A stretch of DNA of 64,000 nt from Chlamydoabsidia padenii (taxonomy: Eukaryota; Mucoromycota; Mucoromycetes; Mucorales; Cunninghamellaceae). A model generated the notes under the pieces. The model worked only from the letters and a program-made list of their open reading frames with translations. It had not been told where the DNA came from and did no database searches. The stretch covers positions 186,001 to 250,000 of the forward strand of contig JAIWND010000021.1 in assembly GCA_025330725.1 (NCBI GenBank), in the 5' to 3' direction. Made by a program: the position numbers and the translations under genes. This document shows, in pieces, positions 274 through 61,918 of this stretch; position 1 is the first letter of the stretch; each line of letters opens with the position of its first letter.

Positions 274-289
274 GCGGGATTTGAAAATG
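274..289 (+). promoter_or_regulatory. CGGGATTTGAAA element
   Basis: Reads GCGGGATTTGAAAATG, the fullest form of an element repeated throughout the window and found at the head of the dispersed repeat units at 11.5 and 39.0 kb. No start codon within 300 bp is identifiable, so its target is unknown. Confidence 0.5.
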
Positions 290-1233
290 TCTTGAGCGGA
301 AAAATCATCCCATCCAAAAATGGAGGAGTCCTTCAATTTCTTCTTTTACTTTTAAATGTTGCCGCTCTGAATGGAGCTACCCCCTCCTTAATGAACGTAA
401 GTATAGAGAGGTAAAACATATCTGTTTATAATACTAATACTCTCCTGCCTTACCAATCATAGATACTCGGGCTTGTGTCAACCAAATAAACCAAGTACCT
501 TGAAGAAACTGCTGCTGCTGAATCTATTTACAATGTCACTATCAACAGAACGCAAAGCCTTACCGGACTTTAACGATTCGACCACGACTTCCTATTGAAA
601 AGGGATCTAGCTTTGAACCAGTAAAACAAAATGGATGTGGATCTTACTATTAGGTAACTAACAAAAAAAAAAAAAAAAACAAGGCTGTAAAGAAAACAAG
701 AATTGATGACTAACCATTGTATTTTACTTATCGATCAACATCAAGGTAATTGCATATATACTTTTTACCCTTGGCATGTCGCCTAAGACAAGAATCCAAC
801 GGACCTTTGTCTTTTATAGTAAGGAGCAGGGTCAACACTGTTTTTACTGGGAAGGGTCCGTGCTTTATGTGTAGGATTGATCTCAATTCAACAAATGACA
901 TGGGTGACTCGACGACTCCACCAACAGATGATCGGTAATCCGGCATGATCAGTATTCATCTTATACAATGCGGCTCAACAACCATCATCATCTGTCTTGC
1001 TCTGGCCCTTCTCCAATCACACTGGGCCAATCGACTGAATAACCTTACTGATCCTAATACTTCTCATTTATTAAATTATTTCATTAGTGTCCCTCTAGTA
1101 TAGTATAGTCTTTTACTTTTATGTATATATCACTATTAGTAATAATAATAAAAGCATCAATGAATGTAATATGATCTAGTAGGTGTTGGTATTAACTAAT
1201 ACAAGACCCTGTCAATGCCCCATGGATAATATA

Positions 1234-1246
1234 ATTGAAATCCCGA
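1234..1246 (-). promoter_or_regulatory. CGGGATTTGAAA-like element upstream of TIM44
   Basis: Plus strand ATTGAAATCCCGA, a variant of the reverse-complement element, about 130 bp before the TIM44 ATG. A pyrimidine-rich tract follows at 1288-1350. Confidence 0.5.
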
Positions 1247-1374
1247 CAGTGAAGATAGTCAAGCCACAACCAAAATCCCCTTAACTTTTTTTTTTCCGTC
1301 TCCCTTGCCCCCCCCTGTCTTTCTCTTCCCGCTTTTTTTTTTCTTCATTAATTCTTCTTCCCCATTTAACAATT

Positions 1375-3081
1375 ATGTCTGGTTACCGTCTTCTTTTGAC
1401 ATCTGCCACCCGTACTGGTCTTCGTCACTCACCTGCCCACCAAGTGACAGCTGTGCGTCATTATAGCTCTCCTCTCAGGGTATTCATGGACACTATCAAG
1501 GATCAACTGAACAAGAACAAAGAAGTACAACAAGGTGTCAAGTCATTACAGGATGAATCCGGTAAATTTGCCGATAGCGAAGCATTAAAACGAGCCAAAG
1601 AAATGTTTGAAAAAGCCAAGGTAACTATTAAAAAGAAAAAAGAAGGGTCTTCTTATCCACTTATCCATCCTCTACATAGATGCAACAAAGCGCCTCACAA
1701 GAACGATTGAAACAAGCTACAGAAAAATTGACGGAAACTGCTGGCAAAGTTGGACAAACGGTGAATGAATCGTGGAAAAAAGCGTCTGAAACGGAATTCG
1801 CCAAAGAATCAAGCAAACGAATCAAGGAAGCAGCGGAAAACATCAACAAACAAGCGGAACCACTCAAGAACAGTGCTGTGGCCGGCAAGATCAGCGAATC
1901 CTTCCGAACCGTAACCAAGGACGAATCAGGTCGATACTCTGGATTTATCGACAAGGAAACTCGACGAAAGATGCGCGCGGAAGGAAAGGACGCGGCAAGC
2001 AAAGACGGACGAAAGGTGGTGACGGAAAATCCTGATGCTGGGGCTGGTATGGTCTTGCACAAGGACTCTAAATGGAAAGAAAGCTGGAATAAATTCAAGG
2101 AAGATAGTCCTATTATGCAAGGTAAACTAGATTAAATATAATAATGAAACTATCGTATAGTTGTGTATTAATCCAATTATTTTATTGTTAATAGGTATCT
2201 TCCGGGCTAGAAAAAACTATGAAGATTCAGATAATGTCTTTGTGTCATATACCCGTGCATTCACTGATCGTGTATCAGAAACTTTTGGTAAGTTTTATTA
2301 ATAACATTATGGGACTGTCACTAACCTTTCTCTCTTTCTTTAACTAAATAGGATCTATCTTTGAAGAATCTGATCAAGCTCTTACCATCCGTGCCTTCCA
2401 ACAAATTGATCCCTCATTCAACATGGATGAATTCATGAAGGAAGCTCGTGGATTCATTGTACCTGAAGTGATGGAGGCCTACTTGAAGGGTGATGTTGAA
2501 ACCTTGAAAGTATGGTGCTCTGAAGCGGTAAGGAGAGAAAAAAGAAAAGAAGAGAAAACCAAAAAGTGATGATGAACTCATAACATTTTTTTTATTTTTA
2601 TTATATAGACTTATAATGTGTTGACAGCCGTCATTCAAGCCCAGATGCAACAAGGATTGATCAGTGACTGCAAGATTCAAGATTTACGGGATGTCGATGT
2701 AAGTACAGACTGGTAAAAACAAAAAGGACACTCATCTGATGACTACTCTAACACCTATTTATAGTTGGTTGCTGCTAAAATTTTAGAAAACGATGTCCCA
2801 GTTTTGGTCTTGTCCTTCCGAACTCAAGAAATCATCGTTTTCCGAAATGCAAAATCTGGCGAAGTGGTTTATGGCAAAGAGGTAATAAAAAAAAAGAGTT
2901 TTGATCATGATCATCATAATCAACTGACTTTATTATGTAAACACTTTTATAATAGGATCAAATCGAACAAGTGACTTATGCTTGTGTCTTCACCAAGGAA
3001 CCCGAAGACCTTCAAAACCCTGTAACGGCTGGTTGGAGAATCATCGATATGGCCAAGCATGACTCTCGACCTGTTTGGTAG
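1375..3081 (+). CDS. TIM44: Mitochondrial inner membrane translocase subunit TIM44
   Basis: Tim44 tethers mtHsp70 to the TIM23 channel on the matrix side of the inner membrane and couples ATP hydrolysis to presequence-protein import. Exons 1375-1620, 1680-2121, 2195-2287, 2352-2527, 2609-2698, 2765-2881 and 2956-3081 give 429 aa, the usual family length. The N-terminus is basic and hydroxylated with no acidic residue before about residue 38, a good matrix-targeting leader. Residues 40-230 are charged amphipathic helix. The C-terminal ~200 residues are the conserved Tim44/MBA1-like domain, including FEESDQALTIRAFQQIDPSF and an ending on W-R-I-I-D. The start is the first ATG after a long pyrimidine-rich leader. 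Identification is firm. Confidence 0.96.
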
Positions 3082-3709
3082 ATAACATCGGAATGCAATG
3101 TACATAGATTATATTATTATTATTATTAGATGTCGTTGGCAACAACAACCATTCTCTCTCTCTCTCTCTCTTTTTTTTTTTTTATAGTTACTAGATTAGA
3201 AGACGATATGTCCACTCACTTACCCTCATCCCCTCTCCTCCTTTATTTACTCAATCTTAGTCTTATTATCATAATAAAAAACCACAGTCATCTTGTATCT
3301 TTATTTATATCTCTCTGTTTATCCCATATAAAGATCCTCTTAATATGTTTCGACATGTTGGGAGATTGAAATGCTTAAAGGTAACCAAATATCATACGTT
3401 TTTTTTTTTAAGCATGTCCGCTCTTACAAGATCGATCGCGTCTGTTCCTTTTTACCATCATCTGCCGCTGATGACAAAGAATAGGATGACCGATCGGATC
3501 AACTTTTGACATGTTACATTTCCTAAACTGGATGATTCTAGTTTATGCCATGCAATATCCTCGATCCACGTTTTTTCTCGTTCCCCCATGATCTGGTTCC
3601 TTGGAAAAACGGGATTTGAAAACTGCATTGGCCGGGCGGTGAAAAATAGAGCAATCCGATTGGTTTAAAAGAATGTCATGCCACTGGGGCTCAAAAATAA
3701 AACTTTCCC

Positions 3710-6200: not shown

Positions 6201-6746
6201 ATTATGCCACATATACATATACCAACCCATCTCTCTTTATATACTGTTAGTCTCTTTATTAGATATAGACTTTATTTGCTTTTTCTCTTTTTTTTTTTAT
6301 ATAACTATGATGATTCCTGTTATGTACGTATTATGTTATGTGCTATTTGCACCTTAATTTTTTATAATAATAAAAACCAAAAAGTAACTTACTTCTATTT
6401 ACTCTTTGCGTCCTTTAGTTTTGCATGAATTGCGGGAATCCAAAATTAATTTTATACTCCGCGCATGGCGTCGATGTTTGATCCCTTGTAGCAAGTAAAT
6501 TGAATCGCAAACCTATGATTGGTTCTATTGAAAGGACACAATCACTTCCTTCTTGCTAAATATCAACAAGTTATAAGGAAAGGGGAAAAAAAGTAGAGTC
6601 ATTTGATCTTTATACCATCTCAAGAAAAAAGCGGAGGATCCCCCTTGTTCAAAAAAGTTCTTCCCGTTCGGGGATTGAAACAGTACGAATAAAAACGACA
6701 GGGTTATTTTTTTTTTTTTTTTTTGCCATCTTTCCACCGACCTTTC
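6201..6746. other. 3' region of the RGS fusion and SDHAF4 promoter
   Basis: AT-rich, with AATAAA-like tracts at 6366-6375 that could polyadenylate the upstream gene, and a 17-T run just before SDHAF4. No coding signal. Confidence 0.6.
6669..6680 (+). promoter_or_regulatory. CGGGATTTGAAA-like element upstream of SDHAF4
   Basis: CGGGGATTGAAA, 67 bp before the ATG at 6747. It keeps the GGGATT and GAAA halves with a one-base shift. Confidence 0.5.
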
Positions 6747-7883: not shown

Positions 7884-8196
7884 GGTAGTTGTATATATAA
7901 AAAATAGGTGGAGGAAAGAGAATTGGAAAAAAAGGGGTGGGGCAGGAAAATGGTTTTGTCGATATTCGGGATTTAAACATTGAGGGCGTCTTCAAAAAAA
8001 AAAAAAAAAAGTCCAGTTCTGTTCAGTTGATGTGTGAAACCCAATGATGGTTTCATCCATGCTTGCTATGGTGGAACCTGCCCAACACTTGTCGCCTTGT
8101 TCATTTGAACGAGACACACATAAGAAACCAACTTGATTTTTTTTTCTTTTTCCCCACACTTTACTTTTCTTTTTCACCACGCCATTATTTTCCTAA
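7884..8196. promoter_or_regulatory. Divergent promoter between SPO7 and a helical-protein gene
   Basis: A 313-bp head-to-head intergenic region. It holds the element at 7967 and a 17-A run at 7993. No coding signal. Confidence 0.6.
7967..7978 (+). promoter_or_regulatory. CGGGATTTGAAA-like element in the SPO7 divergent promoter
   Basis: CGGGATTTAAAC, 84 bp upstream of the SPO7 ATG and about 220 bp from the divergent gene's ATG. Confidence 0.55.
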
Positions 8197-11482: not shown

Positions 11483-12078
11483 TGCTAGGCGCATTGAATT
11501 TTGGTATTCGGCGTTTGAAAATGAAGCTTTCTTTCGTCTACATAGAAAAAAAATCTTTCGAAGCAAAGAAAAGGTAAAAGTCATTGCAAGTCTAAACATC
11601 CTAACACAAGGATCTTGGAGCTTGGCTTTTGCGGTAAAGTATGTTGGAAATAGGTCATAGTGTCCACATGGCCACTTTAATCGTTAGCATCCTTTAACAA
11701 CGGAGCGAGTAAAGCTCCTTCCAACTCTGACTAGGGACTGGCGGGATTTGGAAATGATTTTTGCTTCTGTCTGTAAAAAAAAGTCTTCGTCCTTTTTTCT
11801 TGCAAGAGACAGGTAAAACTTATTACAAGCTTGGACAGACTAGCACAAGAATTTTGGCGCTTGAATTTTGTGGTAAAATATATTGGAAATGGGTTATAGT
11901 ATTCACATTACCACTTTAATCATTAGCATCCTTTAACAACGGAGCGAGGAGAGCCCATCCAAAATCTTGGTAAGGAATCAAGGTGAAGCGGGGTTTGAAC
12001 ACGAAGTGGGTTTCATGACAGGTAAAAGTCATCGCAAGTTCGGGCAGGTTGACACAAGGGACTTGGTGCTTGGCTTTT
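11483..12078 (+). repeat. Dispersed repeat, two and a half tandem units
   Basis: Two head-to-tail units and a partial third share segments with each other and with 39.0-39.5 kb. Each unit starts with a form of the window-wide element (11509 CGGCGTTTGAAAATG, 11741 GCGGGATTTGGAAATG, 11988 GCGGGGTTTGAAC), at spacings of 232 and 247 bp. Shared blocks inside a unit are, in order, GGTAAAAGTCATTGCAAG, ACACAAGGATCTTGG, GGTAAAGTATGTTGGAAAT, CCACTTTAATCGTTAGCATC and CTTTAACAACGGAGCGAG. Copies differ at roughly a tenth to a fifth of positions by eye. No ORF is conserved, and I see no terminal inverted repeats or target duplications. Confidence 0.85.
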
Positions 12079-14941: not shown

Positions 14942-15012
14942 ATTGTAATCAAAAAAAAAAAGTAAAAGAAAGAAAGGGGAATTTGCCTTTGCCTTTTTAC
15001 TAGTATTGTGAT

Positions 15013-15025
15013 TTTAAATCCCGAC
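15013..15025 (-). promoter_or_regulatory. CGGGATTTGAAA-like element upstream of SNX4
   Basis: Plus strand TTTAAATCCCGAC, 72 bp upstream of the SNX4 start on the minus strand. Confidence 0.55.
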
Positions 15026-16516: not shown

Positions 16517-18773
16517 ATGGATCCCTGCATTACCAACAACCTTTATAGTCTTCCTGCCAACTTGGAAGAAGACGGTACAAAGCTATTTGAAGCCAATCAT
16601 TATCCTGTGTCAAAAGGTAATAAAGAAGAGAAATTACTGTGGGAAATGTCAACTAACATTTTAATGAAACACTGTAGAACCTGACACTATGATTAAAACA
16701 AGCGTCCCACAGGACACGGACAATATTGAACCTGTAAGTAAATGTAAAACCCCCCTTCCCCTCCAATGAAAAACCATATTTCAGGAGCACTAATCTATCT
16801 ATTACTTTCTTTAAAGGACCCATCAACTAAAGAGTACGCGTCTGACAACAACAAGAACAACACCGAGGTGGAAGAACTGGCTATTAAACAGTCTGGGAAC
16901 TCTGTAAAAGAAGAAAAGGTAAACAAGATGAATCATGCCAAAATCATCACACTCATACATACATTATATTAGACCTTGGATCGTGATACTATAACTGATT
17001 ATGAACAACAAAGAAATCCGGAATGGTTTCTCGAAGGAAAACCTGCCAAAACACCTGCCAAATACATGTTGATCAGAAACTTTATACTGGATTATTGGAA
17101 CAAGCATAAACCTCAATACATTGCCAAATCTGTCGTCCGCAAACAAATGTCCAACTGTGGTGATGTCAATTCCTTTGGTCGTGTCCATTCCTTCCTTGAA
17201 TCGGCGGGGTATATCAATGTCAACTGTCCAATGTCCACCAGAACCGGTCATTCTACCGTCAAAAAACCACGTGTTCCTCGTCCCTATCAGCCCAAGTCTC
17301 TATCGGAAAAGTCTTTGGATAGAAAAAGGTAAATATGGGAAAGAGGTGTAGAGTTGGTTATATTAACTTGTCATTCTTTATATAAAACAGAAAAAAGAAT
17401 CATAATCTCGAAATGTGGTAAGTATTTGATTTGGATTTTACAATCATCTTTTAACTCGCTGTTTGTTTTTCTTTTTTTCTTTTTAGGAACAGCGCTGACA
17501 TTCCCCGTAATGCAAACCAGAGGAATCGGGATTTGAAAAAAAAGACTAACCTTCTCTTCCTCCTTTTTATAGCAAGCAAATCGAAAAGAAGACGCGATAA
17601 ACCTCGATATGCTAACAATGGTGCTGAAGATGGTGAATCTGATCCCTATCAATTGGTTCCTCTTGAAGATTACACAGACAACTATCCTGCACCTTTCAAA
17701 GTCAGTGTGAACAGTGACGCCTTGGTAAGTCTTGTCGAGATGATCATCATCCAATACTGATTCTTCTTCTTTTTATATATATATATATATACGTAGGCCA
17801 TTGCAGATTTTCATTCTCATTTGGTATTGACTGAAATTATTGGATTGCTTGGTGGTACCTTTGAAACAAACGATAATGGTGAAAAAATCCTCACTGTAAA
17901 GCAAGTCTTCCCTTGTAAAAGCACAAGTACCGATATCCAGGTAAGTATACCCCTTCACTAATCAATCACTTTATAAATATTTATTATTATTATTGTTATT
18001 ATTATTACATATAGTGTGAAATGGATCCCAATTCTGAAATGGAAGCAAGGGAATGGTTTGCAGAGAAGGGGTTGCAGGTAGTAGGTTGGTACCACTCTCA
18101 TCCGACATTTGTGGCAATTCCTAGTATCCGTGACATTGAAAACCAAATGTCTTATCAGGTAAATATACAAATGTTGATACAATCAATCTCTTTAATATTC
18201 TCTTTACTACTTTATAGGATCTCTTCCGCATCAAGGAAACTGGCGATGAACCTTTTATTGGTCTTATCATCAATCCATATAATACAAAAGATGGAATCTC
18301 AGCCATGACCTATGTGCATATCAGTAATGAAGTAGACAGCACAATGACCTTCCGTAAGTACGATCTACTTTGATACGTATTGTAGGACGATTCATAAATA
18401 TTTAATCTTGCCTTTGTTTTTATTTAGGTGTACCTTACAAATGTGATCAGATCACTACTCCAAACATCGTTGATGTGGCTGCGACTATGGCTACTTTTGA
18501 ACATCTTGTTGAGGAGTACAAGGACCATCAAGAGTAAGTTGTTTTTTTATGCATTAATACCAAAGAAATGCTCATACTCACACTTTTTTTTTTTAACCCC
18601 ACACATATAGAAAAGTGGACATGTCTTCCAAGATTGATGGACAACTAGCCACGGATATATGTTTGAACTCTTTGGAACGATTTGTACATTTGGAACCTGA
18701 TTCTCATCAATATTTTACTGGTCAAGTCCGACGTCTCATTACCGATCACTTTCAGCAATTACATCAAGACTAG
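16517..18773 (+). CDS. MYSM1-like SWIRM-MPN+ deubiquitinase, paralogue A (no SANT domain)
   Basis: Twelve exons (16517-16616, 16678-16733, 16817-16918, 16973-17328, 17391-17417, 17487-17506, 17573-17724, 17797-17940, 18015-18158, 18218-18353, 18428-18533, 18611-18773) give 501 aa. After an acidic N-terminus, residues ~95-180 are a SWIRM domain: [43 protein letters not shown]. Residues ~265-430 are an MPN+ (JAMM) metalloprotease domain with an intact motif: E284, H346, H348, S356, D359 in GWYHSHPTF...PSIRDIENQ. Animal MYSM1 joins Myb/SANT, SWIRM and MPN and removes monoubiquitin from histone H2A; here the SANT is absent, whereas paralogue B at 30.9 kb has it. By inference this is a chromatin deubiquitinase with altered DNA targeting. 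Intron 6 contains a copy of the window-wide element. Two exons are very short (27 and 20 nt), but phases agree throughout. Confidence 0.9.
17527..17539 (+). promoter_or_regulatory. CGGGATTTGAAA element inside an intron
   Basis: Exact CGGGATTTGAAAA within intron 6 (17507-17572) of MYSM1-like A. It could belong to an intronic regulatory site or be a passenger; it is one of two intronic copies in the window. Confidence 0.5.
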
Positions 18774-21749: not shown

Positions 21750-22367
21750 TTAAGAGAGTTGTTCACCTAGATTGTAAAAAAGACATTAGTATCACCAACA
21801 ATGCAAACCCACTTTTTTTTTTTCTTCTTTTACCCTTGTTTACCTTGTAAGATACCTTGATCCATTAATGCATCCATGGTAGGCCGCCCAGCAATCTTTT
21901 GTTCAAGATTCCTTTGTAATTCCAATTTATCATTATTAGGATTTTGAAAAGCAGGTGCGACAACACAGTCTATACAAAACAATAAAGTGAGCAAAAAAAA
22001 AAAAAAAAAAGCATCATGTAGAATTATACTTTGTAAAATGTTTTGTTGCACCAAGGATTCAGGTGTGGGGCGGTGAGCGATCTTGTGACGCAAGGCATCT
22101 TCAAGTTTTCGTTTCGAGAGCTCGTCGCGTTGTTGTTGGATGGCAGGAGCGACATGAGGATCTATATAACATGAGTTGGTTTAAAAGAATGATAGAGGGG
22201 AGATTACTTTACCTTTCAAGATGTTCTTGTTAACAAGATCCATGACATTAGGTCGTCGAGCCAGTAGGTTTTCAAGTGGGTTTTCTGGTACGGCTAACCG
22301 TTCATTACATATAAACGTAAAGTTATATTAGTCTATAAAGTTTGTGGTCATCTTTTTACTTACTCAT
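21750..22367 (-). CDS. RPEL-repeat protein 1 (three repeats)
   Basis: Five minus-strand exons (22367-22364, 22293-22213, 22161-22030, 21969-21844, 21766-21750) give 119 aa. The protein is little more than three RPEL motifs, each near RP...(D/E).L(V/M)....IL: R-R-P-N-V-M-D-L-V-N-K-N-I-L-K, then HRPTPESLVQQNILQ, then GRPTMDALMDQGILQ. Each repeat ends an exon, and the repeat-bearing exons begin and end in phase 1, a layout suited to exon duplication. In animals RPEL motifs bind G-actin (MRTF, Phactr), and fungal stand-alone RPEL proteins are poorly characterised, so actin binding is an inference. The first exon encodes only ATG plus one base; its donor and frame agree with the plus-strand paralogue at 34.6 kb, which supports the model. 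Confidence 0.85.
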
Positions 22368-22446
22368 TGTTGAGATGGGAGAAAGAGAAACAAAAGGGAT
22401 TGAAAAAATCCAGGGGGTTGAAACATATTTTATGCCTCTCTGAAGT

Positions 22447-22459
22447 CGGGGGTTTAAAT
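22447..22459 (+). promoter_or_regulatory. CGGGATTTGAAA-like element upstream of RPEL protein 1
   Basis: CGGGGGTTTAAAT, 80 bp upstream of the RPEL1 ATG on the minus strand. Two weaker relatives, GGGATTGAAAAA at 22397 and GGGGGTTGAAAC at 22413, lie between it and the gene. Confidence 0.45.
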
Positions 22460-30121: not shown

Positions 30122-30740
30122 ATATTCGTCTTGGAGCCCCCCCAAGTTTGTATATGATATACCCAAATATGGTTGATTTCCTTTTCGTTTATCACAAAAA
30201 GGTTTCGTTTCTTTGTGATACAAAAGCGCTATTTTTTGTAGTTGCGATGATGTGCGCGTATGATATAATAGACGTAACTTCATCAATCCTGTCCTCCCAA
30301 AAACGATCATGTCATCGATCAAAAACCATGCCTATTGTTTTGGAAGAAACGTCATGAGTAAACTTTTCCCACTCACCTGATCAGCACATGCCCGTACTAT
30401 TTTAAACGGGTTTCGGACCAAAGGGAAAAAACTTGATCCAGATTAATATTTGGGCTCATACCATTTGGAATCGTTTCACGAATACATTGTGTAAAATCAA
30501 TAACAACAACAGTCAAATGATAAACAAAAAAGAGTTTTCCTTCTCTGTTCCCTTTTTTGCTAAAGATCGAGCTCTTTTTGTGATCTACCTACCTCATGAC
30601 TATGTATATATGTAATTATTATAAATGGATGACTATTACTGCAATGTTTAAAAAAGACAAAGATGTGTGCTGTCATACCTATTTTCTCTTATCTGAGTTA
30701 CTTTTATGCATTGCATTGATCTTTTCAGGTACCGCGTGAG

Positions 30741-30756
30741 GCGGGATGTGAATTGG
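30741..30756 (+). promoter_or_regulatory. CGGGATTTGAAA-like element upstream of MYSM1-like B
   Basis: GCGGGATGTGAATTGG, about 136-151 bp before the ATG at 30892. Paralogue A carries its copy at a similar distance. Confidence 0.5.
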
Positions 30757-33715: not shown

Positions 33716-33749
<34 letters not shown>

Positions 33750-34308: not shown

Positions 34309-34641
34309 TACTAATTGACACTACCATTTGTATTTATCACCCAATGCCTTTCCTAGTCATCATCTTACACATAGTTTATACATATACTGCATTTTACTGA
34401 ATAAAATAAAACTACCAATATTATCATCATCATATATATACTTGTCTTGGGGTTAATAGTGGTTTGTCTATAAATATCATCAATGGTGGGAAGCTCCAAG
34501 TGCACGGCAATGCATCGGGATTTGAATTGTTTCACGTGAACTAATCGAAAACGGTGTAGCCCCAAAAATAAAACACCTACTTTTTTTTTTTTTTTCCTCT
34601 CTTTTTCTTTTCTTCTTCATCACTTTTTTTATTCCTCCATC
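34309..34641. promoter_or_regulatory. Intergenic region between MYSM1-like B and RPEL protein 2
   Basis: Contains GAATAAAATAAAA at 34399 as a likely polyadenylation signal, the element at 34516 and a T-rich leader at 34580-34632. Confidence 0.6.
34516..34529 (+). promoter_or_regulatory. CGGGATTTGAAA element upstream of RPEL protein 2
   Basis: CGGGATTTGAATTG, 126 bp before the ATG at 34642; an exact match to the 11-base core CGGGATTTGAA. Confidence 0.6.
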
Positions 34642-38983: not shown

Positions 38984-39670
38984 GATTAAAAAGTGAAAGA
39001 AAGTGGGGTTGTCTCTTTTTGTGGGAATTGCTAGGCGGACAGAATTTTGGTATTCGGCGTTTGAAAATGAAGTTTCCTTCCGTCTAGAAACAATAAAACA
39101 ATCTTCGTCGCAAAGGACAAGTAAAAGTCATCGCAAGTCTGAACATACCGACACAAGGGTCTTGGAGCTTAGCTTTTGCGGTGATTTATGTTGGAAATAT
39201 GCTATAGTGCTCACATAGCCACTTTAATCATTAGCATCCGTTGACCATTGGAGAGAGTAGAGCCCTTTCCAAATCTTAGTAGAGGCAGACGGAATCTGAA
39301 AATGAAGCTGGTTCCTCTTATTTTTTTTCTTTCAAATGACATGTAAAAGTCATCGTCGCTTATAATCGTTAGTATCTGTTAACAATTTAGAGAGTAGTGC
39401 TCCTCCAAAATTCCGTGAGCCCAGCATTTCCCCCTTTGTGAGGAACAGCTACGGCGACATTTGAAAATGAAAAACGGGATTTGAAAATCCATTGTCGCAT
39501 ATATAATAATGATGATATACGATAAATCAGTTTTATTGTAAAAAACTTTTCAAAAAAAGGAAACAAATGGGAAATAAAATGTGATTATGTATCACTGGTT
39601 TGAGATTCAGGCCAAAAGAAGAAAAAAAACAGGCTATAATGTGATTGGAGGGGATCATCATCCAAAAAGT
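38984..39670. other. Repeat-occupied interval
   Basis: Almost entirely filled by the second array of the dispersed repeat (39023-39490). 39490-39670 is AT-rich with no coding signal. Confidence 0.6.
39023..39490 (+). repeat. Dispersed repeat, second tandem array
   Basis: Same family and orientation as 11483-12078. The first unit begins with CGGCGTTTGAAAATG at 39055 and shares AGTAAAAGTCATCGCAAG, ACACAAGGGTCTTGGAGC, TATGTTGGAAATA, CCACTTTAATCATTAGCATC with the first array. A second unit begins at 39290 (CGGAATCTGAAAATG), 235 bp later, and is shortened by an internal deletion between TAAAAGTCATCG and TAATCGTTAGTATC. The array ends with two further head motifs at about 39453 and 39475 (CGGGATTTGAAAATCC, exact core). 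Confidence 0.85.
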
Positions 39671-39674
39671 ATCA

Positions 39675-40078: not shown

Positions 40079-40084
40079 TAGGGA

Positions 40085-40268: not shown

Positions 40269-41250
40269 AGTTTGTTTGTTTTGGATAGGTAAGAAAAGAA
40301 TGAAGATGAAGACGAAAGAAAAGAAGAAAATTGGGCGTGTTTTATAGACATTTTCCACCGTGAGGGACTTTTTTCAAAAAAGAGATGGAAGGAAATCGAT
40401 TATGATGGAAGGAATCTAAGCCAAATAAAATCAAATCATGTGGTGTTTGTTTGAGCGATAAACAAAAGATGGATGTCTTCCTCCTTATTTGTGTCACTAA
40501 TTCAAGTGGCGTTGTCATTAGATATTTACTCGTTTCCCACCTCTTAACTCAAACACTCATGTGAATTCTATCTTTATGATGATAACAAAGGACCATGAAA
40601 AAAGGACAGTAGTTGCATCGAGGATGGCGGGATATGAAAAAAGCTTTTTTTGCATGAACGGCAGGTTTCGAAATTGACATCCCGACAATTAATAGTGATA
40701 CAGTTACATGATGATAAAAAAGTAGTTCACATTGCTGACACTCTTGTTAATACACTGATTACCTTTTTTCCAAAACGGGTTTCTTGCAGGGTGACACGAT
40801 GGCTGGGGGCCCCACTAATAGCCATTTCATGAGTACATCTTTTGTCAAACTCTAGTTCATCGTTACCTTCATTAAGGTGATTAGAATGTACCTATTATAA
40901 GGTGTCGTATAATCTGCTAGGCATCATTCAATTAAAAAAAATCAGAAGTCTTTTTTTTTTTTTTGTTCAACGGGATTTCAAAAATGACTTTTTATGGATT
41001 CTGATTTTTTTAGGAGGGATCTCTTCCTTCACTCCGCTTCACCACTTTTTATTTTATTCTCATATACACACCAATCACACCAGTACGAACATTCTTCAAT
41101 AAACTCTGGTAAAAGTGACAACAAATAGCAAAGACGATCAATCGGACTCTAGGCTACTAATGAAGACAAGCTGAACAACAAGAAGAAAAAAGCACCAACA
41201 TTATACTCACTTTAAACAAAGTCATACTATTCGCATTTACACCATCACCA
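40269..41250. other. Gene-poor stretch with two element copies
   Basis: No supported gene. Element-like sites at 40627 (GCGGGATATGAAAA) and 40971; poly-T at 40952. The second could serve the locus that begins near 41270. Confidence 0.5.
40971..40986 (+). promoter_or_regulatory. CGGGATTTGAAA-like element upstream of a candidate decayed gene
   Basis: CGGGATTTCAAAAATG, about 300 bp upstream of the first exon-like block of the 41.27-41.97 kb locus. Confidence 0.45.
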
Positions 41251-41269
41251 AACGATCAATTCTCTTAAA

Positions 41270-41975
41270 AGAAGCTTCTCTTGAAAACTATATTGGTTTT
41301 CTTCGACTTGACAGTAAGTAATTTTGCCTATCTGCAAATCCCTTCTAATCTGTTTATATTGCTTATGATACTTGTTATAGGTGATGGCAACATTCGCTTG
41401 GTGATTGAAAACTGGTTGGCATATGGTTTACTGGTTAGATATACCATTCCGCTTGATGTTCTCTTATTATGGTGGAATACAAGATCTGCTTTTTTATTGA
41501 ATCATCCTTTAGGTAAGCATATGTGGATGTGCGCGTTGGAATGGGTATTGGATATGGAATCAACCAGTTTACCTCTTCTTCAAAAGACATGTTTATCTAC
41601 CTAGTGTCCATCATGGTCTGCCTCCTTATCTCGCCGTATTGCATGGTGGCCATTCCTATTCATTCAATCAACGGTGTTATACTAGATCAGATTCCTTCAA
41701 TCACTAATACGAACCATTTGAAAAAGTGGTGCCTTTGATGATACCTTCATTCGCCAAGTATAAAAAAGGACTATCGGGTTGGATCTAACACATATTACTT
41801 TTACTGGGTTATCATAATTATGTTAGGATTATCTTTTGTGTCATTGGTGGCCCAACCTACTATCGTACTCATGTATTATCATCGATGGACATGTAATGGG
41901 AATAACAAAGTATTCATTAACAACTCCTTGATGTATTCTACTCGAGGTTATCTAGTCCGGGGTTAGTATAGTACT
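41270..41975 (+). pseudogene. Candidate decayed gene, unrecognised
   Basis: Exon-like block ending at 41312 (GTAAGT donor) joins a block starting 41391 (TAG acceptor) in one phase. It reads ENYIGFLRLDS then NIRLVIENWLAYGLLVRYT and I-P-L-D-V-L-L-L-W-W. The P-L-D-V-L-L-x-W segment recalls the DUF1399/GRDP-type fold, but this is a weak resemblance. The frame stays open for about 80 codons, to near 41600, then meets eight in-frame stops up to 41970, again all explicable as CAA/CAG/CGA to stop, without frameshift. Alternative frames in the same stretch also encode hydrophobic segments. A promoter-like element lies upstream and AATAAAG occurs at about 42066. Confidence 0.3.
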
Positions 41976-42655
41976 TTTACCCCACAATATAATACAAACA
42001 CATATCAACCCCCACATATAATATAGACTACAGTGTTATGTTTTGCATAAATGACTTTTAACCATAATAAAGAAATGTATTTTTTTTTGTCAGACATTAA
42101 ATAAATCATCCAACACAATGAAGAATGCTATACAACTATTGATTAACCCACTATTGTAACCAAAAACTATTGTCACATAACGATATCAGATCAATCAGAA
42201 GAAACCATAGATAAATACTGGGCATATAATAGTTGATATAGTAAGCCAAGGTATACGAAGAGTAATGTTTAGGGAATCCAGCAAGTTGATTAATACCCTA
42301 ATCAGGGGAAAATGTGGCGGCAGGAACGAGTATTCATGTATATGCATATTATTCAAACGCCGCTTCAACGTTTTGATACCAAGTGATCATGTCCCTTACA
42401 AGGCCCATCGTTGTATACGAAGGTCCTAGTTGATTAGCATGTATAGTTTTTTGTGGTCTATACAAAAGTTACAAAGATGACACTTGGATGGTTAAAGACA
42501 AGGGACACGATTTTTAAACGCATTCAATCGTCGAATTGATCAAATTTCAAACCCCGTAAGTAAGTAAAAAACACAAGTTTATTGTGATTAGATATAACAA
42601 AGAAGACAAGTAAAATAGCTAATGAATAGTATATATAATTAATAATTGAGGTCTA
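41976..42655. other. Gene-poor stretch downstream of acyl-CoA oxidase
   Basis: AT-rich, no supported gene. One element-like site at 42545 (plus strand TTTCAAACCCCG) lies 100 bp beyond the acyl-CoA oxidase stop codon. Confidence 0.5.
42545..42556 (-). promoter_or_regulatory. CGGGATTTGAAA-like element (3' of acyl-CoA oxidase)
   Basis: Plus strand TTTCAAACCCCG. No divergent start codon nearby; an orphan copy. Confidence 0.4.
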
Positions 42656-45352
42656 TTACAATTTGGAAGATATTTTCAAGTTATCACCATGGTGGAGCAT
42701 ATCAAACAGCACAGCCTATTTGTTATTTTTTTTTTATTTAAAAAAAAAGGGTATTAGTAAAGCCACTATTATACACAACAATACAACTTACATCGATTTC
42801 CTTACGACCGGCTTCATTGTTCAAAGGATTCTTCTGGACGGCTTCCCATAGGCGTTCATAGGCACGACCATCATACGATCCAAGAGCACTGGCCAATTCG
42901 CGATCACTGAATCCAAAAGCATCAGTCAAAGGCACAGCGTTAACGGCTACATTGTCGAGGAGTTGTCGGAATTGGGCCTGAATGGCGTCTAAATCTTTGG
43001 ATTGAATGGTACCCGTAGACAGGAAGGAGGCAATAGAAGATTGGGCCACGATACTGACAGCAAACTAAGGGAGGGAAAAAAAAACATAATCGTTAATCAT
43101 CATCCTCCACAATAAGCCTTTTTTCTTCTTCAAGTAGGTTTACCAAGTTGGCCAATTGAGTCATTGTCTTTGCCAAAGAAGGTGTATTTGCAGACACAGA
43201 AGCCACACGTTCGTTGAATTGTCGGACAAGGTTATATTCAGCATGAGCAAAGCAGACATTCCAGCATTCGATATTGACATCCGACCAAGATCGACCTGAT
43301 TTCAATTGGTAACCTAGATCCGCAACCAGACGAGCCGCACGCAATCCAAACAGATTTTCTTGTACCTTAGGTTCAAGGATATCTTGATTCGCATCAATGA
43401 ATTTGTAAGGAGCATGAGGCGTATCAGTAATCAACAAGTTGAGGTAAGAGGTATTGGTGGATTCGATCTTGGTGCCCCGAGAGACGCTGTCCAGTTGTTT
43501 CAAAAGCGCACGACCCACTTGTTGACAAAGCACGTAATTATCCCCTTCATAAGTATTAGATGGCACCGCAGTAGCAAACAGTTGACCCACCCCACTAAAC
43601 ACAGAATAACCATGACCACCCATCGCCTTTCGACATTCTTCTTGACCATCCGTAGATCGCCGAGTACACCATACTTTAAGAGAGCATGTGGTAATATGCA
43701 TTTCAGGCAACATGCTGGCGTCTTGTTTCAATAATTGCTGAGTCATCTTTTGGAATTGGGCACTGACGCTTTGTCCTGCAAACAGCAACGCATAGGCCAC
43801 TGCCACCAAAGGGAAGAGACGATGTTTGACCGAGGAGTAGTTAATCACTTGTTGTTCGAGAGTGGCGTCTTTTACCGATGTGTCGTGGAATTGTCGTCGT
43901 ACCGTACCGTACCGAATGGCAATAGTTGCTGCTTTTCCGAGCTTGACCCCAGCATCTGCCACCATACCTACTCGGAGTTTAACCATACTGCCATAGGATA
44001 ACTTGTCATGTACAGGTCGAATGTATTGTCCATCCCGTGTTACTTGAGCAAATCGCATGAGCATGTTTTCCCGAGGAATGCGGACATGATCAAAGAGGGC
44101 GACTAGAAAAATAGAAAGAAAAAAAAAAAGGGGGGAAAGGGGTTAGTTATACTTCGTCTTTATTTATTGCAACACCTTTACTTACACCCATTGTCCACAT
44201 TGGCAAAACCGCCATAGGCTTTGGGTCCAATATCACCAACAGTTACACCTTTGAGTGGTTTGAGATTCACTAAAAGAAAAAGAAAAAAAAGTATACAAAT
44301 AAATGAGCATTTCGTGATAACGATCTTTTTTATTTTCTTATTACCTGGAGATCGCACGGGGACAATAAAGATATGAGGACCGAATGATTTGCCGTCAATC
44401 ATCAGTTGAGCCTAGTTCGAAAAAGTCTGTTAGTAAAGTATTCACTGCATTTAATGATTTTTCCTTTTACCTGAAGAGCACAATGACTTGATGAGATACC
44501 TAATCCACCAACCCACCATTTGGCAGCCTATATATATATATATATAAAAGAAGTAAAAATTGTTAATCATTAGGCATTGCATCAAAGACATAGCAACTTA
44601 CAGTTAGGTCTGGAGTGTGGATAATGAATTCATCAGTGTTGGTATCAAGTGTGGCAGTTGTTCGCAGACCTTGTACATTGGATCCATGACTAGGCAAAGG
44701 TTTTGTTTAATAACAGGCTGAGAGAGAGAATCTTCATATTGATAATATCTTACCCCAATTCAGTTTGAGCATAGCAGCCCATGATGGCCAATTTCTTTGC
44801 CGGTTCCACCCATTTTTCAACTTGTTCGTCCGTGCCCTGAGATTGAATGACAGGAATAAAAGCTGTATATATATATATATATAAAGAGAGTTGATTCCAG
44901 TTTCCATAAGACTAGTATTTCATTCTTTTGACTTACCAGAGTAGTGTAGACCTAGTGGAGACATTGCATCGGAAAGCAAGACAAGACCCTGGAATTCAAC
45001 TTCGGACAGACCTTCTTCTTCGACCATCTGTAACAAACGTTTGTGCACCAAAAGAGAATGATGAAGCATCTATTGTGAAAAAAAAACAAAGAAAGATATG
45101 TGTAAGTGGCCCTGTTTTTTTTTTTTTTTTTGTCTCTTTATTAAACAAACATACCTCTGCGCGACTCATGTAATCGAGTTTAGACTTGTCCAATAGGGGT
45201 TCCTTTTCCATAATGGCACGCAGTTTCGTTGCAACGCTGAGGATGAGTTCGCCACCATAGAGCACCTTGGTCAACTCCTTCACAGGAAAAGTAGCCTGTT
45301 GGCGAGCCACTTGGATATCAGTTGCCATTTGTTGTAAAGATGAATTCGTCAT
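42656..45352 (-). CDS. POX1: Peroxisomal acyl-CoA oxidase
   Basis: Catalyses the first, FAD-dependent step of peroxisomal beta-oxidation, acyl-CoA to trans-2-enoyl-CoA with H2O2 formed. Ten minus-strand exons (45352-45155, 45069-44937, 44862-44754, 44689-44602, 44527-44471, 44411-44345, 44269-44186, 44102-43144, 43064-42792, 42715-42656) give 675 aa, a normal ACOX length. Visible family features are [22 protein letters not shown] (the FAD/substrate region), [31 protein letters not shown] and TYEGDNYVL, which contains the catalytic Glu region. The last exon encodes a C-terminal SKL, a PTS1 peroxisomal signal, which confirms the otherwise short final exon. Exon 8 must splice at 43144; reading on would give a premature acidic end. 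Confidence 0.96.
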
Positions 45353-45744: not shown

Positions 45745-45759
45745 CGTTCAAACCCCGCG
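45745..45759 (-). promoter_or_regulatory. CGGGATTTGAAA-like element upstream of DIM1
   Basis: Plus strand CGTTCAAACCCCGCG, 82-96 bp before the DIM1 ATG. It matches the tRNA B-box consensus as well as the window-wide element. Confidence 0.5.
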
Positions 45760-47169: not shown

Positions 47170-47385
47170 GTTCCCCGCCCATCTCTCCCTCATCCTACTT
47201 CATTCTTCTCTAGTTATATATTATTCATATCATTCATCCACTTTACACTTTAGATTGTTAGTTTTACTAATTACTAGTTATCATTCTATCACATTACAAT
47301 AAAACCTAGTCGAATCATGATTTGGAATTGAATCACTCTTACACAAAGATCGATAAACTGATCTTTTACGTTTTGTGCATGAATC

Positions 47386-47399
47386 GCGGGATTTGAAAT
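47386..47399 (+). promoter_or_regulatory. CGGGATTTGAAA element, distal to CCT3
   Basis: GCGGGATTTGAAAT, an exact core match, 370 bp before the CCT3 ATG and 217 bp after the DIM1 stop. Confidence 0.55.
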
Positions 47400-47593
47400 A
47401 AATAAAATAAGGATGGTGTGCTGTGCCTGTGTTGACAGGATCCAACTACTACAAATCATTTTTCATAAAGCATTAGTGCTTTATTTGGTTGTAAATGTTG
47501 AATCAAAAACCTATTAAGGAAGAATAAATGTACATACAACTCAATTCCTGTCCTTTTAACTAATCAAGGTGAGGAAGATGAAAGTGCCGGTGT

Positions 47594-47604
47594 CGGGGTT
47601 TAAC
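47594..47604 (+). promoter_or_regulatory. CGGGATTTGAAA-like element upstream of CCT3
   Basis: CGGGGTTTAAC, 162 bp before the CCT3 ATG; the same orientation as the upstream copy at 47386. Confidence 0.5.
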
Positions 47605-47755
47605 TTTACCGTGCCTGCTTTTTCTAAAATTTGGCTGTCGGCGTACGCGAGAGAGAACGGACTTTTGATATTTTTTATTTAACTTTTTTTTTTTTTCCCT
47701 TCTCTTCTTCCTTCTTCTTTTACCACTTTTTTTTTATCAATCACATACTTACAAG

Positions 47756-50067: not shown

Positions 50068-50393
50068 AACATTCGATGGTAGTTTAGTTTAATGATAGCT
50101 TTGTCACTTTTTTTTTTTATTTAACTTTACTTTATCTTATTACATATCTTTTATAATAAAGAACAGCATGATCAGATGAGGAATATGCACCTCTCCAGTT
50201 TATATCATCCACTTACTGTTTGTCTTTTTGTTGCACAAAAGACTCGTTCCCGTCTATTTAACCCCCGACTATTTTTGATTTTATTCTTCAAGCAAAAATC
50301 CTCCCGTTTTCCCTTCTTTCTTCCACTTTCTTCCACCTCCATCCACTCCCACCTTTTATATATACCACCGACATTCACTTTAAACCTTTATTT
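50068..50393. other. CCT3 3' region and promoter of the reductase gene
   Basis: 326 bp; TAATAAAG at 50155 is a likely polyadenylation signal. A C/T-rich leader and TATATATA at about 50357 precede the next ATG. No copy of the window-wide element was found here. Confidence 0.55.
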
Positions 50394-52660: not shown

Positions 52661-52747
52661 TGTTGTTTGGTTATAATTAGTGGAAAGAAGAGGGGGAAGA
52701 AAAAAAAAAAAAAAAAAAGTTCTTGTATACTTTGCCGCCTATAAAGT

Positions 52748-52759
52748 CGGGATTTGAAG
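52748..52759 (+). promoter_or_regulatory. CGGGATTTGAAA element upstream of RPB11
   Basis: CGGGATTTGAAG, 88 bp upstream of the RPB11 ATG; an exact core match. Confidence 0.6.
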
Positions 52760-53115: not shown

Positions 53116-53159
53116 GCGGGATCTCAAAAAGCTGATTAATGCAACTTTTCAAATCCCGC
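53116..53159. promoter_or_regulatory. Inverted pair of CGGGATTTGAAA elements
   Basis: GCGGGATCTCAAAA at 53116 and, 17 bases on, TTTCAAATCCCGC at 53147 in the opposite orientation (exact core). The pair could fold into a hairpin. It lies 157 bp beyond the OPT stop codon and 456 bp upstream of RPB11. Confidence 0.5.
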
Positions 53160-53315
53160 TTTCCCGCCTACTGTAAATCCTTTCAAGACATGACATTAAA
53201 ACCGAATGATAGGATAAAAGTGATGGAATACATTTTATTAATTAAGATTACATAATATACATTTTTTTAAAAAAAGCAGAGGGGAGATAGTATGTGATAG
53301 GGAGAAAGATGAGAA

Positions 53316-55776: not shown

Positions 55777-55790
55777 TTTCAAATCCCGAC
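55777..55790 (-). promoter_or_regulatory. CGGGATTTGAAA element upstream of the OPT gene
   Basis: Plus strand TTTCAAATCCCGAC, 103 bp upstream of the OPT ATG on the minus strand; an exact core match. Confidence 0.6.
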
Positions 55791-56556
55791 CAACTGCCCT
55801 TTTATCTTGTCGGACAATTTATTGGTTAAACCAATCAAATGCGATTAGATCTTTTATGTCACATGAAGCATCATTACAAAATATACCGAGCACTTCAATG
55901 AATGGTTTATTTTCGCACGATGAATCGATAGGTCCCTTCCCAGTTAAGCATTTTCTACTGTTTTTGGCAAATTGTTCCCAAAACCTTCTTTTGATCCCTT
56001 GGTTTTTGATTATCACCCATCAAAACTGAATCGTCTTTTTGATCGTTGATGGGTAAATGTCCTTCCCCCCGGATTTTCACTTATCCATGCTTGATCCGTT
56101 TACTACTCTCCTTTTTTTTTTTTTTTTTTTTTTTTTTGGCTATGCATTCATTGGCTACACTCCACTGCGGATGGTGTATCATGACTCATCACAGCGTCTT
56201 TTTTTGGAAGGCAGCAATGACTCTTTCCATCCCCCTCTCTTTGCTGCCCTTTTAATTCATTTATGCGTACAACACAAAGTCAAGGATAGATTCTTCTGGA
56301 GGACAAAGATTGGATTTTTACTTTTTGAACAGAAAAAGAAAGACGATCTATAATACATTTGCTAATATGACTATCGGAGTAACCTTCCATTTGCACAAAT
56401 GAGGACAATTTCACATATCTTTTACTCGACATTTGGATGGTGTAACAATATATTGGTAATCTTCTTCTCCGTCCCTCCCCTTCTTATCACGCCCAATCAT
56501 TGACCTTCATCTTATTCCGAAAAAGATCACACCTATTTTTCCTCAACTTGATCCAC

Positions 56557-56569
56557 CGGGATTTCAAAT
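56557..56569 (+). promoter_or_regulatory. CGGGATTTGAAA-like element upstream of the DHHC gene
   Basis: CGGGATTTCAAAT, 126 bp before the ATG at 56683. Confidence 0.55.
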
Positions 56570-59788: not shown

Positions 59789-59797
59789 AACCCCGAC
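59784..59797 (-). promoter_or_regulatory. CGGGATTTGAAA-like element at the arrestin stop codon
   Basis: Plus strand ATTGAAACCCCGAC overlapping the TGA of the arrestin-like gene, so the element here is partly coding. Confidence 0.4.
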
Positions 59798-60114
59798 AGA
59801 TAAGACAATCACTGTGCAACTAGGAAGATCATGATACCCCACCCCATTATATACATAATGCATATGATATGTGTTTATTCCAAAAAAAAAAAGTCCATAA
59901 TGACCTATATATAAAGTAGTCTATGCATAGATAAGTGTATTTTTTTTTAATATTTGAAAATGATTTAATATATAAGATAGCTAGATACATGTATTTATAA
60001 ATAGATGTGGAGAGGGTAGTGACAAAGAAGGAAGGGAAAAGAAGTATGTATATATATATATGGAGAGGAATGTTAAAAAAGGGATAGGAGATGATGTTGA
60101 TCTATACTATTTCT
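59789..60114. other. Convergent 3' region of arrestin-like and homocitrate synthase genes
   Basis: 326 bp of AT-rich sequence with TATATA runs at 59908 and 60050. No coding signal. Confidence 0.55.
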
Positions 60115-61588
60115 TCATTGCGCGGCATTGATAGTAGCGATCATATCAGGAGTGTCGATTTTATCCAAGACTTGAGTATGTAAACCTTGATCCTTGGCTT
60201 GATGATAAGTACGTAACAAAGTATCAACATCATCCAACGACAATGGACGTACATCGGCCAATTCCTTGATCTTTTGAGTCACATGCTTAGCATCATCATC
60301 TGTCAGACCCAAGTTGAGTTGTTCCACCCGGTTCTTGACAGCATTCCAGCCAGTGAGACGATGACCAATCGAGACATAACGATTCATACCAAAGTCATGA
60401 GGATTCAGGATTTCATAAGTAGAAGGATTGTTAAGAATGGCCTTGGCATGGATACCTGCCTTGTGAGTGAAAGCACAATAACCAGTAATGTAATTGTTAA
60501 AAGGCACCGTCACTTCCACCGAATCGGCCACGATATTTTCCACATCCCGAATCTTGGTCAAATCATACTTGTTCATCACGAATTCCTTGTCTGCCGTATA
60601 CATTCTTGCCAAAAGTCCACCAAGAGGAGTAATACCGTTTCGTTCCCCAATGCCCAAGACGGATGTATCAATATGTGTGGCACCAGCTTCCAAAGCTATA
60701 GTTGACAAGGGTGTTAGTTTTTTTTTTTTTTTTTTTTTTTTCCCTACATGTCAAACCCATCCATTCTCTCTTTCCCCCCCCTTTCTTACCAGTATAAGCA
60801 TTAGCAATGGCACAACCAGTATCATTATGGAAATGACATTCGATATCACAACTAACGACACTTCGTAAAGTTCGTACCAATTCATATACTTGACGAGGAT
60901 TAGCACAGCCTACGGTATCAGCAATCCCTACGCGAGTCACACCAATCTTGTCCACAGCCTTGTAAATCGAGAGCAAATCCACCAGATCAGATCGGAAAGA
61001 GTCTTCAGTTGAGAATCGCACTTCGAGACCTTTGCTCTTGATATAGGTGATGACTTCAATAGCCTTATTGGTGATGTACTCCATATCTTTGCCATGAGAG
61101 AATTCGCGCAGGAAACTTGAAGTTCCGATCACCACGTCGAGACCATCCACACCAGATTCAATCGCCAGTTTGGCATCGTCCATATGGCACCGTACATGAG
61201 TCAAGATCTTGGCTTTGAGTCCCAGACTGGAAATCACCCGGCAGTCGTTCAATGATTGTTCAGAGGCAGCAGGTGAAGTGAGTTCAAGGTAATCCACACC
61301 AATCGCATCCAACGCTTTAGCAATTTCCACCTTCTTGGCCGTGTCGAAGAATGCATTAGCAAACTGTTCACCCTCTATATAATAAAAGAGGCCAAGTATG
61401 AGTCATTGTTCTGTTGTTGTTATTGTTTTATATTACTTACCGCGTAGAGTAGATTCGATAATCTTAAAGTTGGAGATGTTAGACATGGGATCAGGATATT
61501 TGGGCATATAGGGAGAGGCAATAGGTTCCCTAGGTCGAGAAGCATCATTGCTCTTCAAGCCGCTACCATTAGTGTTGTTTGTTGACAT
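60115..61588 (-). CDS. LYS21: Homocitrate synthase (lysine biosynthesis, alpha-aminoadipate pathway)
   Basis: Condenses 2-oxoglutarate with acetyl-CoA to homocitrate, the first committed step of fungal lysine synthesis. Minus-strand exons 61588-61441, 61374-60790 and 60695-60115 give 437 aa, close to yeast Lys20/Lys21. Visible motifs: [16 protein letters not shown] (alpha-IPM/HCS N-terminal motif), [46 protein letters not shown] with metal-binding HxH, and [19 protein letters not shown] cannot separate the LYS20 from LYS21 assignment. It shares a 330-bp divergent promoter with MTHFR. Confidence 0.96.
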
Positions 61589-61918
61589 GTTTGTTTTTAA
61601 ATAGAGAGTATTGCAAGTAGAAAAAAAGAAGGAAACAATGAAAAAAGAAGAGAAAAAAAGAAAGAAACCTCCCATTCTCCCCCACTTTATATCTTTGGCA
61701 AAAGATTATCTTGCCGATTGATGGGCGGCGTTTCAATTTTGGTCTCATTTTTTTTTGGCGTTAGTTGCTAGTTGAGTCAGAGACGCATAGTTTAAGAAGC
61801 AAATGTCCTGATTGGATGACGGGATCTAAATAGTTGGCTGAAGTGTGAACGATTTTTTTTTTTTTAAAGATTTCTTTCCATTCTTCTTTCTTTTTATTAC
61901 ACAACTTGATAAATAACA
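61589..61918. promoter_or_regulatory. Divergent promoter between homocitrate synthase and MTHFR
   Basis: 330 bp head-to-head region containing two element variants, CGGGATCTAAA at 61820 and GCGGCGTTTCAATTTT at about 61725, in the same strand orientation. T-rich leaders flank both starts. Confidence 0.6.
61820..61830 (+). promoter_or_regulatory. CGGGATTTGAAA-like element in the LYS21-MTHFR promoter
   Basis: CGGGATCTAAA, 99 bp before the MTHFR ATG and 232 bp from the homocitrate synthase ATG. Confidence 0.5.

Follow-up and report, generated by a model that had tools for sequence, protein, structure and literature searches.

A recurrent bipartite motif upstream of most predicted genes in Chlamydoabsidia padenii as a candidate site of a general promoter factor

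The sites of the general regulatory factors of yeast (Reb1, Abf1, and Rap1) are short and non-palindromic, occur in either orientation, and are found just ahead of numerous unrelated genes, in or close to the open promoter region; the core of the Reb1 site is CGGGTAA. In metazoans, the DRE, the M1BP motif, and the GFY element of Ronin/THAP11-ZNF143 are housekeeping promoter elements located near the starts of many broadly expressed genes, and some of them are direction-bound. Here, we describe a motif of 14 bp in the mucoralean fungus Chlamydoabsidia padenii, contained in a window of 64,000 nucleotides (contig JAIWND010000021.1, hereafter C14, positions 186001–250000). Like the sites of Reb1, Abf1, and Rap1, the motif is short, non-palindromic, and neutral in orientation with respect to its position, and it lies upstream of many unrelated genes. 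Its core, CGGG[AG]TTTGAA, differs from that of the Reb1 site, and unlike the yeast sites, this one motif is present at more than 60% of the sampled promoters, with a pair spacing of approximately 190 bp and many distal copies. The metazoan elements likewise place one motif near many gene starts, but they are unrelated to the present motif in sequence and lineage.

The genome comprises 34.2 Mb in 95 contigs. Unless the window or the whole genome is named, the counts below refer to a 310-kb sample consisting of C14:1-260000, which includes the window, and C1:200001-250000. Genes were predicted with our own splice-aware, self-trained gene finder, and the predicted ATGs stand in for the unmapped transcription starts. 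The finder gave 115 genes at a score of at least 12, with a median intron of 69 bp and sharp GTAAGT and YAG splice signals; the position and promoter counts use 114 genes, chosen regardless of function. Some first exons are missed (the ATG of CCT3 is probably at approximately 47756, as read by eye, and the model gives 47943), so the numbers of motif-bearing genes are probably low. Motif sites are matches with a score of at least 11 to a position weight matrix refined by expectation-maximization, and the reversed matrix or motif served as the control. The matrix was trained on the same 310 kb that it scans, but without the gene positions.

The motif is bipartite, with the consensus [AG][GT]CGG-NNN-TTNAA[AT] and the best form RKCGGGATTTGAAWW. 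In the refined matrix, [AG][GT]CGG[G][AG]TTT[G]AA[AT][AT], the CGG and the last AA are the strongest elements and the middle is loose; of 416 sites, 327 have a purine at position 8 and 305 have T at position 5. T is approximately as frequent as G ahead of the CGG, and 2 bp separate the CGG from the TTTGAA. The flanks carry little further conservation, and the information ends at the motif edges. A chance origin of the motif was rejected on the genome-wide counts, window shuffles, and over-representation of 10-mers. The exact 11-mer CGGGATTTGAA has 3,811 copies genome-wide (1902 + 1909), compared with 2 (1 + 1) for the reversed word. With at most one mismatch, it occurs 25 times in the window versus 1.79 ± 1.39 times in 100 dinucleotide shuffles. 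No 10-mer with 12 or more occurrences in the 260 kb of C14 is more over-represented than CGGGATTTGA (35 copies, 0.32 expected); the other leading 10-mers are splice donors, simple repeats, and, as judged by eye, parts of an interspersed repeat. The matrix finds 293 sites in the sample, and its reversed form finds 23. A first-pass annotation of the window had reported nine exact 11-mers, in either orientation and far above chance. All nine are present, at 275, 3610, 17527, 34516, 39475, 47387, and 52748 on the plus strand and at 53148 and 55778 on the minus strand (one base off the figures given for the latter two), and both the orientation neutrality and the excess were borne out.

The motif is concentrated in a narrow zone upstream of the predicted genes. 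A site lies 60–200 bp before the ATG in 70 of the 114 genes and 60–160 bp before it in 61, compared with 2 genes in each case for the reversed motif; for genes with a pyrimidine-rich leader, the count at 60–200 bp is 36 of 47 (control, 1). When the repeat blocks described below are removed, the density peaks at 75–125 bp before the ATG (49 sites in 5.6 kb, 8.75/kb), is 0.34–0.35/kb within 50 bp of the ATG (2 sites in 5.85 kb), and is 1.2–2.0/kb between genes at distances of 150 bp or more. Over the sample, there are 0.24 sites per kb of coding sequence, 0.39 per kb of intron, and 2.6 per kb in the 400 bp before ATGs. The first-pass annotation had named a genome-wide lack of enrichment within 300 bp upstream of transcription starts, relative to introns and intergenic DNA, as the outcome that would speak against a promoter element; in the 310 kb, with predicted ATGs in place of the starts, the densities show an enrichment. 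Exact copies within 300 bp upstream of the 114 genes number 19, 12 of which are at −78 to −121. All nine divergent intergenic regions shorter than 600 bp contain the motif, compared with 6 of 20 convergent regions; none of the 10 convergent regions shorter than 290 bp contains it, a limit picked after the list had been viewed. At 73 promoters, the median distance from the motif centre to the following ATG is 103 bp, and the motif points along the gene in 38 cases and against it in 35 (p = 0.82). A motif that works either way round, as these counts suggest, would leave the direction of transcription to other sequences, and the same counts led us to reject a strand-specific core element of fixed orientation, such as a TATA box or an initiator. 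The coding score and length of 47 genes with a site and 17 without one were alike (p = 0.94 and 0.60, respectively).

The sequence downstream of the motif has a constant order at these 73 promoters: an A-rich stretch at approximately +20 to +35 is followed by the abrupt onset of a pyrimidine tract. The purine fraction drops from 0.56 at +28 to 0.17 at +56, and the fitted onset of the tract is at +42 (quartiles 35–57), with medians of +43.5 for motifs in the orientation of the gene (n = 38) and +42 for those in the opposite one (n = 35). The leaders before the ATG have a T content of approximately 0.5–0.6 and a G content of at most 0.05 at −40 to −24. A pyrimidine tract is found beside 97% of 61 promoter sites, compared with 30% of 800 random distal positions. 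A TATA word between the motif and the tract is rare (8 of 62 promoters). The tract presumably represents the initiation zone and the leader.

We consider that the motif is probably bound by a single factor, sequence-specific and general to promoters, which would act in either orientation at most RNA polymerase II promoters. The factor would sit approximately 40–45 bp upstream of the pyrimidine-rich initiation zone and approximately 100 bp before the ATG. Most likely, it would displace nucleosomes or mark their border and so keep the promoter open, which would allow the A-rich stretch, itself weakly TATA-like, to direct initiation together with the pyrimidine tract. Such a mode of action would be that of the Reb1/Abf1-type general regulatory factors of yeast, and the spacing and base composition described below are suggestive in this respect. 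What the sequence shows directly is the motif with its counts, placement, indifference to orientation, distance from the tract, and pair spacing; protein binding, opening of the chromatin, activation, and the tract as a mark of initiation are what we infer from them.

Several observations weigh against this proposal of a general promoter factor. Over all 73 promoters, the distance of the tract from the motif correlates with the distance between the motif and the ATG (0.69); if the motif strictly set the start, the former should not vary with the latter, and the correlation therefore counts against strict start-setting. When the 10 promoters with the tract at least 88 bp away are omitted, the correlation is 0.21 and the standard deviation of the tract position is 13 bp from the motif and 27 bp from the ATG, although this omission was decided after the data had been seen. 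Among promoters whose motif is no more than 160 bp away (n = 62), the correlation is 0.45, with standard deviations of 18 and 21 bp, respectively. In the window, 17 of 25 predicted genes have a site at 60–200 bp (16 by the raw models, and CCT3 with its corrected ATG), and PMA1 and seven others have none at promoter distance. Only four of the nine exact copies in the window are followed by a predicted ATG within 200 bp (those at 3610, 34516, 52748, and 55778). Among the eight 3-kb loci around the exact copies that come first in the list for C1, two of which overlap, three have a predicted ATG approximately 110–130 bp away, as judged by eye (L003, L005, and L006). The small number of exact copies at promoter distance means that the promoter claim rests on the degenerate motif and not on the exact word alone. 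Furthermore, 116 of the 204 non-repeat intergenic sites are not within 300 bp before any predicted ATG, and just 42% of the distal sites have a pyrimidine tract beside them, compared with the 30% of random positions. Since most distal sites lack the tract, promoters are not the whole story. The base composition around the distal sites, described below, fits an intranucleosomal site as well as a linker site.

The first-pass annotation had interpreted the motif as the target of an activator of housekeeping genes. One sequence-specific factor at most promoters agrees with the present results, namely a bipartite motif with unrelated flanks, a preferred distance from the ATG, and no preferred orientation. 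Activation would be a possible action of this factor, and a restriction to housekeeping genes finds no support, as the 70 positive genes come from a set taken regardless of function. In a comparison of upstream pieces of proteasome and aspartyl-protease genes, sites with a score of at least 10 were found in 6 of 7 and 4 of 5 pieces, respectively (reversed motif, 0 of 7 and 2 of 5). With the ATGs guessed by eye, sites at promoter distance were present in 5–6 of the 7 proteasome pieces and approximately 1 of the 5 aspartyl-protease pieces. This contrast hints at a bias toward housekeeping genes, in a small sample with uncertain ATGs. Housekeeping-only use of the motif is thus not supported rather than refuted.

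A different identity of the reader is conceivable from the two halves of the motif. A fungal hybrid of the DREAM/E2F type, in which E2F/DP reads the GCGGG half and a reader of the cell cycle genes homology region (CHR) reads TTTGAA, would recognize an element similar to the pair of cell cycle-dependent element (CDE) and CHR, but at most genes. The CHR bound by LIN54 is TTYRAA, with the CDE four bases ahead of it in many DREAM-repressed promoters (PMC4974476), and hybrid E2F/CHR motifs are reported in worm, fly, and human (PMC3093354) and in Tetrahymena, at approximately 3,000 loci with targets that include general gene expression (PMC8216455). The present motif shares with the CDE/CHR elements of animals and Tetrahymena a location in promoters and a GC-rich half, CGG, ahead of a TTTGAA half. 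Its core reads GCGGG-A-TTTGAA, and the genome contains six E2F_TDP matches over the cut-off (L029–L034). By match length, these six are perhaps three E2F and three DP proteins. However, T is accepted ahead of the CGG about as often as G, the CHR half is looser, position 8 not always being a purine, and the gap is 2 bp instead of the usual 4. Neither a family search nor a search with the human domain found a LIN54/Tesmin CXC domain, although neither had a working positive control and the absence is thus not established. The targets are general, including Tim44, RPB11, and DIM1, and an element found at 70 of 114 genes must reach beyond those of the cell cycle. Because of the CXC result, the short gap, and the general targets, we keep the E2F/CHR hybrid as a rival explanation, and an unlikely one.

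The B-box recognized by TFIIIC has the consensus GGTTCRANNCC, in which the bases matching motif positions 3 and 8 would hardly vary. The reverse complement of the motif, TTCAAATCCC, resembles a tRNA T-arm, and the exact words appear in some tRNA papers, so that an RNA polymerase III promoter or an extra-TFIIIC site was considered. However, the GG of the consensus is absent, and 1 of 204 sites fits the B-box. Positions 3 and 8 are weaker than the motif ends, and no tRNA or Rfam match was found at the curated threshold in the window. A B-box is hence extremely improbable.

The distal copies, which the first-pass annotation had not described, have a matrix closely similar to that of the promoter copies and are arranged with a nucleosome-like spacing. 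Neighbouring sites are scarce at 40–160 bp (14 versus 31.7 expected; none of 2000 permutations was as low), enriched at 160–240 bp (32 versus 18.6, p = 0.002), and depleted at 240–330 bp (9 versus 18.7, p = 0.01); a second peak at 330–390 bp was not significant in the 310 kb (15 versus 11.4, p = 0.16). Genome-wide, same-orientation pairs number 7, 118, 27, and 61 at 80–110, 180–210, 260–290, and 345–375 bp, respectively, with controls of 0, and convergent pairs number 33 at 180–210 bp. Around distal sites, the GC content falls from 0.38 at the site to 0.31 at approximately 100 bp and is again 0.38 at approximately 180 bp, whereas random positions are flat. Poly(A/T) is commonest 70–110 bp on either side, and no clear peak of 10-bp AA/TT periodicity was seen around the sites. 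The pair spacing of approximately 190 bp is thus a nucleosome-like rhythm in the sequence, unexplained by the repeats found. The spacing would fit distal sites either in linkers or on nucleosomes, and the composition leans to a GC-rich stretch bounded by poly(A/T). The window also holds a 7.4-kb stretch in which no gene is predicted at a score of at least 7, yet it has 13 motif sites scoring at least 11, some of them approximately 200 bp apart.

These patterns raise the possibility, which we regard as tentative, that the motif is primarily a nucleosome-array element, whose factor would anchor or space nucleosomes across intergenic DNA, with promoters as its commonest address. The avoidance, preference, and renewed avoidance of pair distances, the two genome-wide peaks, and the GC oscillation are all consistent with this. 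Conversely, the second peak is not significant in the sample, same-orientation pairs at 180–210 bp (59 per class) outnumber convergent ones (33; control, 0), and the phase relative to nucleosomes is ambiguous, without a 10-bp AA/TT rhythm. A motif-bearing repeat also adds some of the pairs; 2 of the 12 printed pairs among the 118 were repeat copies, as judged by eye. A broader and somewhat more doubtful idea is that one factor serves as a genome-wide ruler, placed approximately 45 bp upstream of initiation, in either orientation, at most promoters and at one-nucleosome intervals in intergenic DNA, and that its reader may be a repurposed E2F/DREAM-like complex. If so, one repeated word in the DNA would encode the nucleosome arrays.

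The repeat in question is approximately 235 bp long, interspersed, partly tandem, and intergenic. It amounts to approximately 4.5 kb of the 310 kb, in nine blocks (Table 1), and in the copies examined the motif recurs approximately once per repeat unit. The repeat may spread promoter sites, and a mobile or tandem repeat could in principle have distributed the motif at large. Homologous flanks beyond the motif are present in the nine blocks but not at non-repeat sites, where the information stops at the motif edge. After removal of the blocks with 300 bp of padding, 205 of 240 intergenic sites were left. The flanks of 20 neighbouring same-orientation sites resembled one another no more than random flanks did (mean local score, 19.5 versus 20.6). 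Older, more diverged copies could evade both the flank and the block tests. For the promoter sites, an origin by repeat spread is largely refuted and, in our judgement, very improbable.

Searches of the open literature, as distinct from subscription papers and preprints, for the words themselves and for promoter motifs of Mucorales gave no account of this element among the entries consulted, PMC11258239 included. A promoter-proximal general element is a known kind of element, and the sequence, the promoter share, and the pair spacing appear to be new. Promoter definition in early-diverging fungi seems to be little studied. A single motif at 60–75% of promoters offers a direct biochemical handle on the general factor that we propose, and could lead to a rule for start-site prediction and promoter design in Mucorales. 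It also raises the question of how reliance on one such factor arises in a lineage. To judge from the pair spacing, the order of nucleosomes in this genome may be readable from the sequence alone.

The copies in the window are listed in Table 1. Pfam matches were obtained for all eight window proteins tested: Tim44 (PF04280), the SDHAF4-like protein (DUF1674, PF07896, which we take to be the SDHAF4 family), Spo7 (PF03907), CAF40 (Rcd1), RPB11 (Rpb3/Rpb11 domain, PF13656), DIM1 (RrnaAD, PF00398), CCT3 (Cpn60_TCP1, PF00118), and a homocitrate synthase-like protein (PF22617 and PF00682). All other gene names are putative labels taken over from the first-pass annotation. The copies that it had placed 30–190 bp upstream of a list of genes were recovered for most of these genes. 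The exceptions are PMA1, which has none within approximately 500 bp (best score, 8.9), acyl-CoA oxidase, with a marginal match only (score 10.0 at −45), and the 191-aa ORF, whose site lies farther away, at −228. The reductase, said to lack a near copy, has a variant at −131.

Table 1. Motif copies, repeat blocks, and genes mentioned in the text. Positions are those of the window unless a contig is named; bp distances are to the predicted ATG.
Feature	Position	Strand	Score	Context
Exact-core copy	275	+		near window edge, >1 kb before TIM44
Motif copy GTCGGGATTTCAAT	1234..1247	-	18.0	134 bp before TIM44
Exact-core copy	3608..3621	+	18.0	180 bp before putative RGS fusion
Motif copy	6667..6680	+	15.7	73 bp before SDHAF4-like gene
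Motif copy	7965..7978	+	13.2	88 bp before SPO7 (gene -), 228 bp before 191-aa ORF
Three motif copies, 233-247 bp apart	11507..12000	+		in and beside short tandem array of the repeat
Motif copy	15012..15025	-	18.1	77 bp before putative SNX4
Exact-core copy	17525..17538	+		within intron of putative MYSM1-A
Motif copy	22445..22458	+	13.4	84 bp before RPEL1 (gene -)
Motif copy	30740..30753	+	17.8	145 bp before putative MYSM1-B
Motif copy	30802-30815		15.3	83 bp before putative MYSM1-B
Exact-core copy	34514..34527	+	18.8	121 bp before putative RPEL2
Exact-core distal copy	39473..39486	+		gene-poor stretch 35.3-42.6 kb
Motif copy	45746..45759	-	15.8	88 bp before DIM1
Exact-core copy	47385..47398	+		~360 bp before likely CCT3 ATG
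Weaker copy	47592-47605			~157 bp before likely CCT3 ATG
Variant copy	50256..50269	-	14.3	131 bp before putative reductase
Exact-core copy	52746..52759	+	18.7	92 bp before RPB11 (gene -)
Exact-core copy	53147..53160	-		~160 bp past putative OPT gene end, 493 bp before RPB11
Exact-core copy	55777..55790	-	20.7	109 bp before putative OPT
Motif copy	56555..56568	+	15.1	121 bp before putative DHHC gene
Motif copy, divergent promoter	61724..61737	+	16.8	142 bp before homocitrate synthase-like gene (-), 188 bp before putative MTHFR (+)
Second, weaker copy	61818-61831		11.3	same divergent promoter
Repeat block	~11562-12078			short tandem array
Repeat block	39059..39305	+		motif sites starting 39053 and 39288
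Repeat block	C14 42060-42751			
Repeat block	C14 102479-102857			
Repeat block	C14 121213-122301			
Repeat block	C14 153793-154006			
Repeat block	C14 162113-162359			
Repeat block	C14 253052-253886			
Repeat block	C1 ~249311-249492			
Stretch lacking predicted genes	35269-42656			7.4 kb
MYSM1-like gene	16517-18773			first paralogue pair
RPEL gene	21750-22367			first paralogue pair
MYSM1-like gene	30892-34308			second paralogue pair
RPEL gene	34642-35269			second paralogue pair
Homocitrate synthase-like gene	60115-61588	-		divergent from putative MTHFR

Three further observations concern the genes of the window. The homocitrate synthase-like gene, divergent from the putative MTHFR gene, was absent from the gene list of the first-pass annotation. 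The predicted RPEL1 protein has relatives in Halteromyces radiatus (62%), Absidia cylindrospora (60%), and Radiomyces spectabilis (51%), which carry PF02755. MYSM1-like and RPEL genes are neighbours in two paralogous pairs, as judged from their likeness by eye, which suggests a local duplication.

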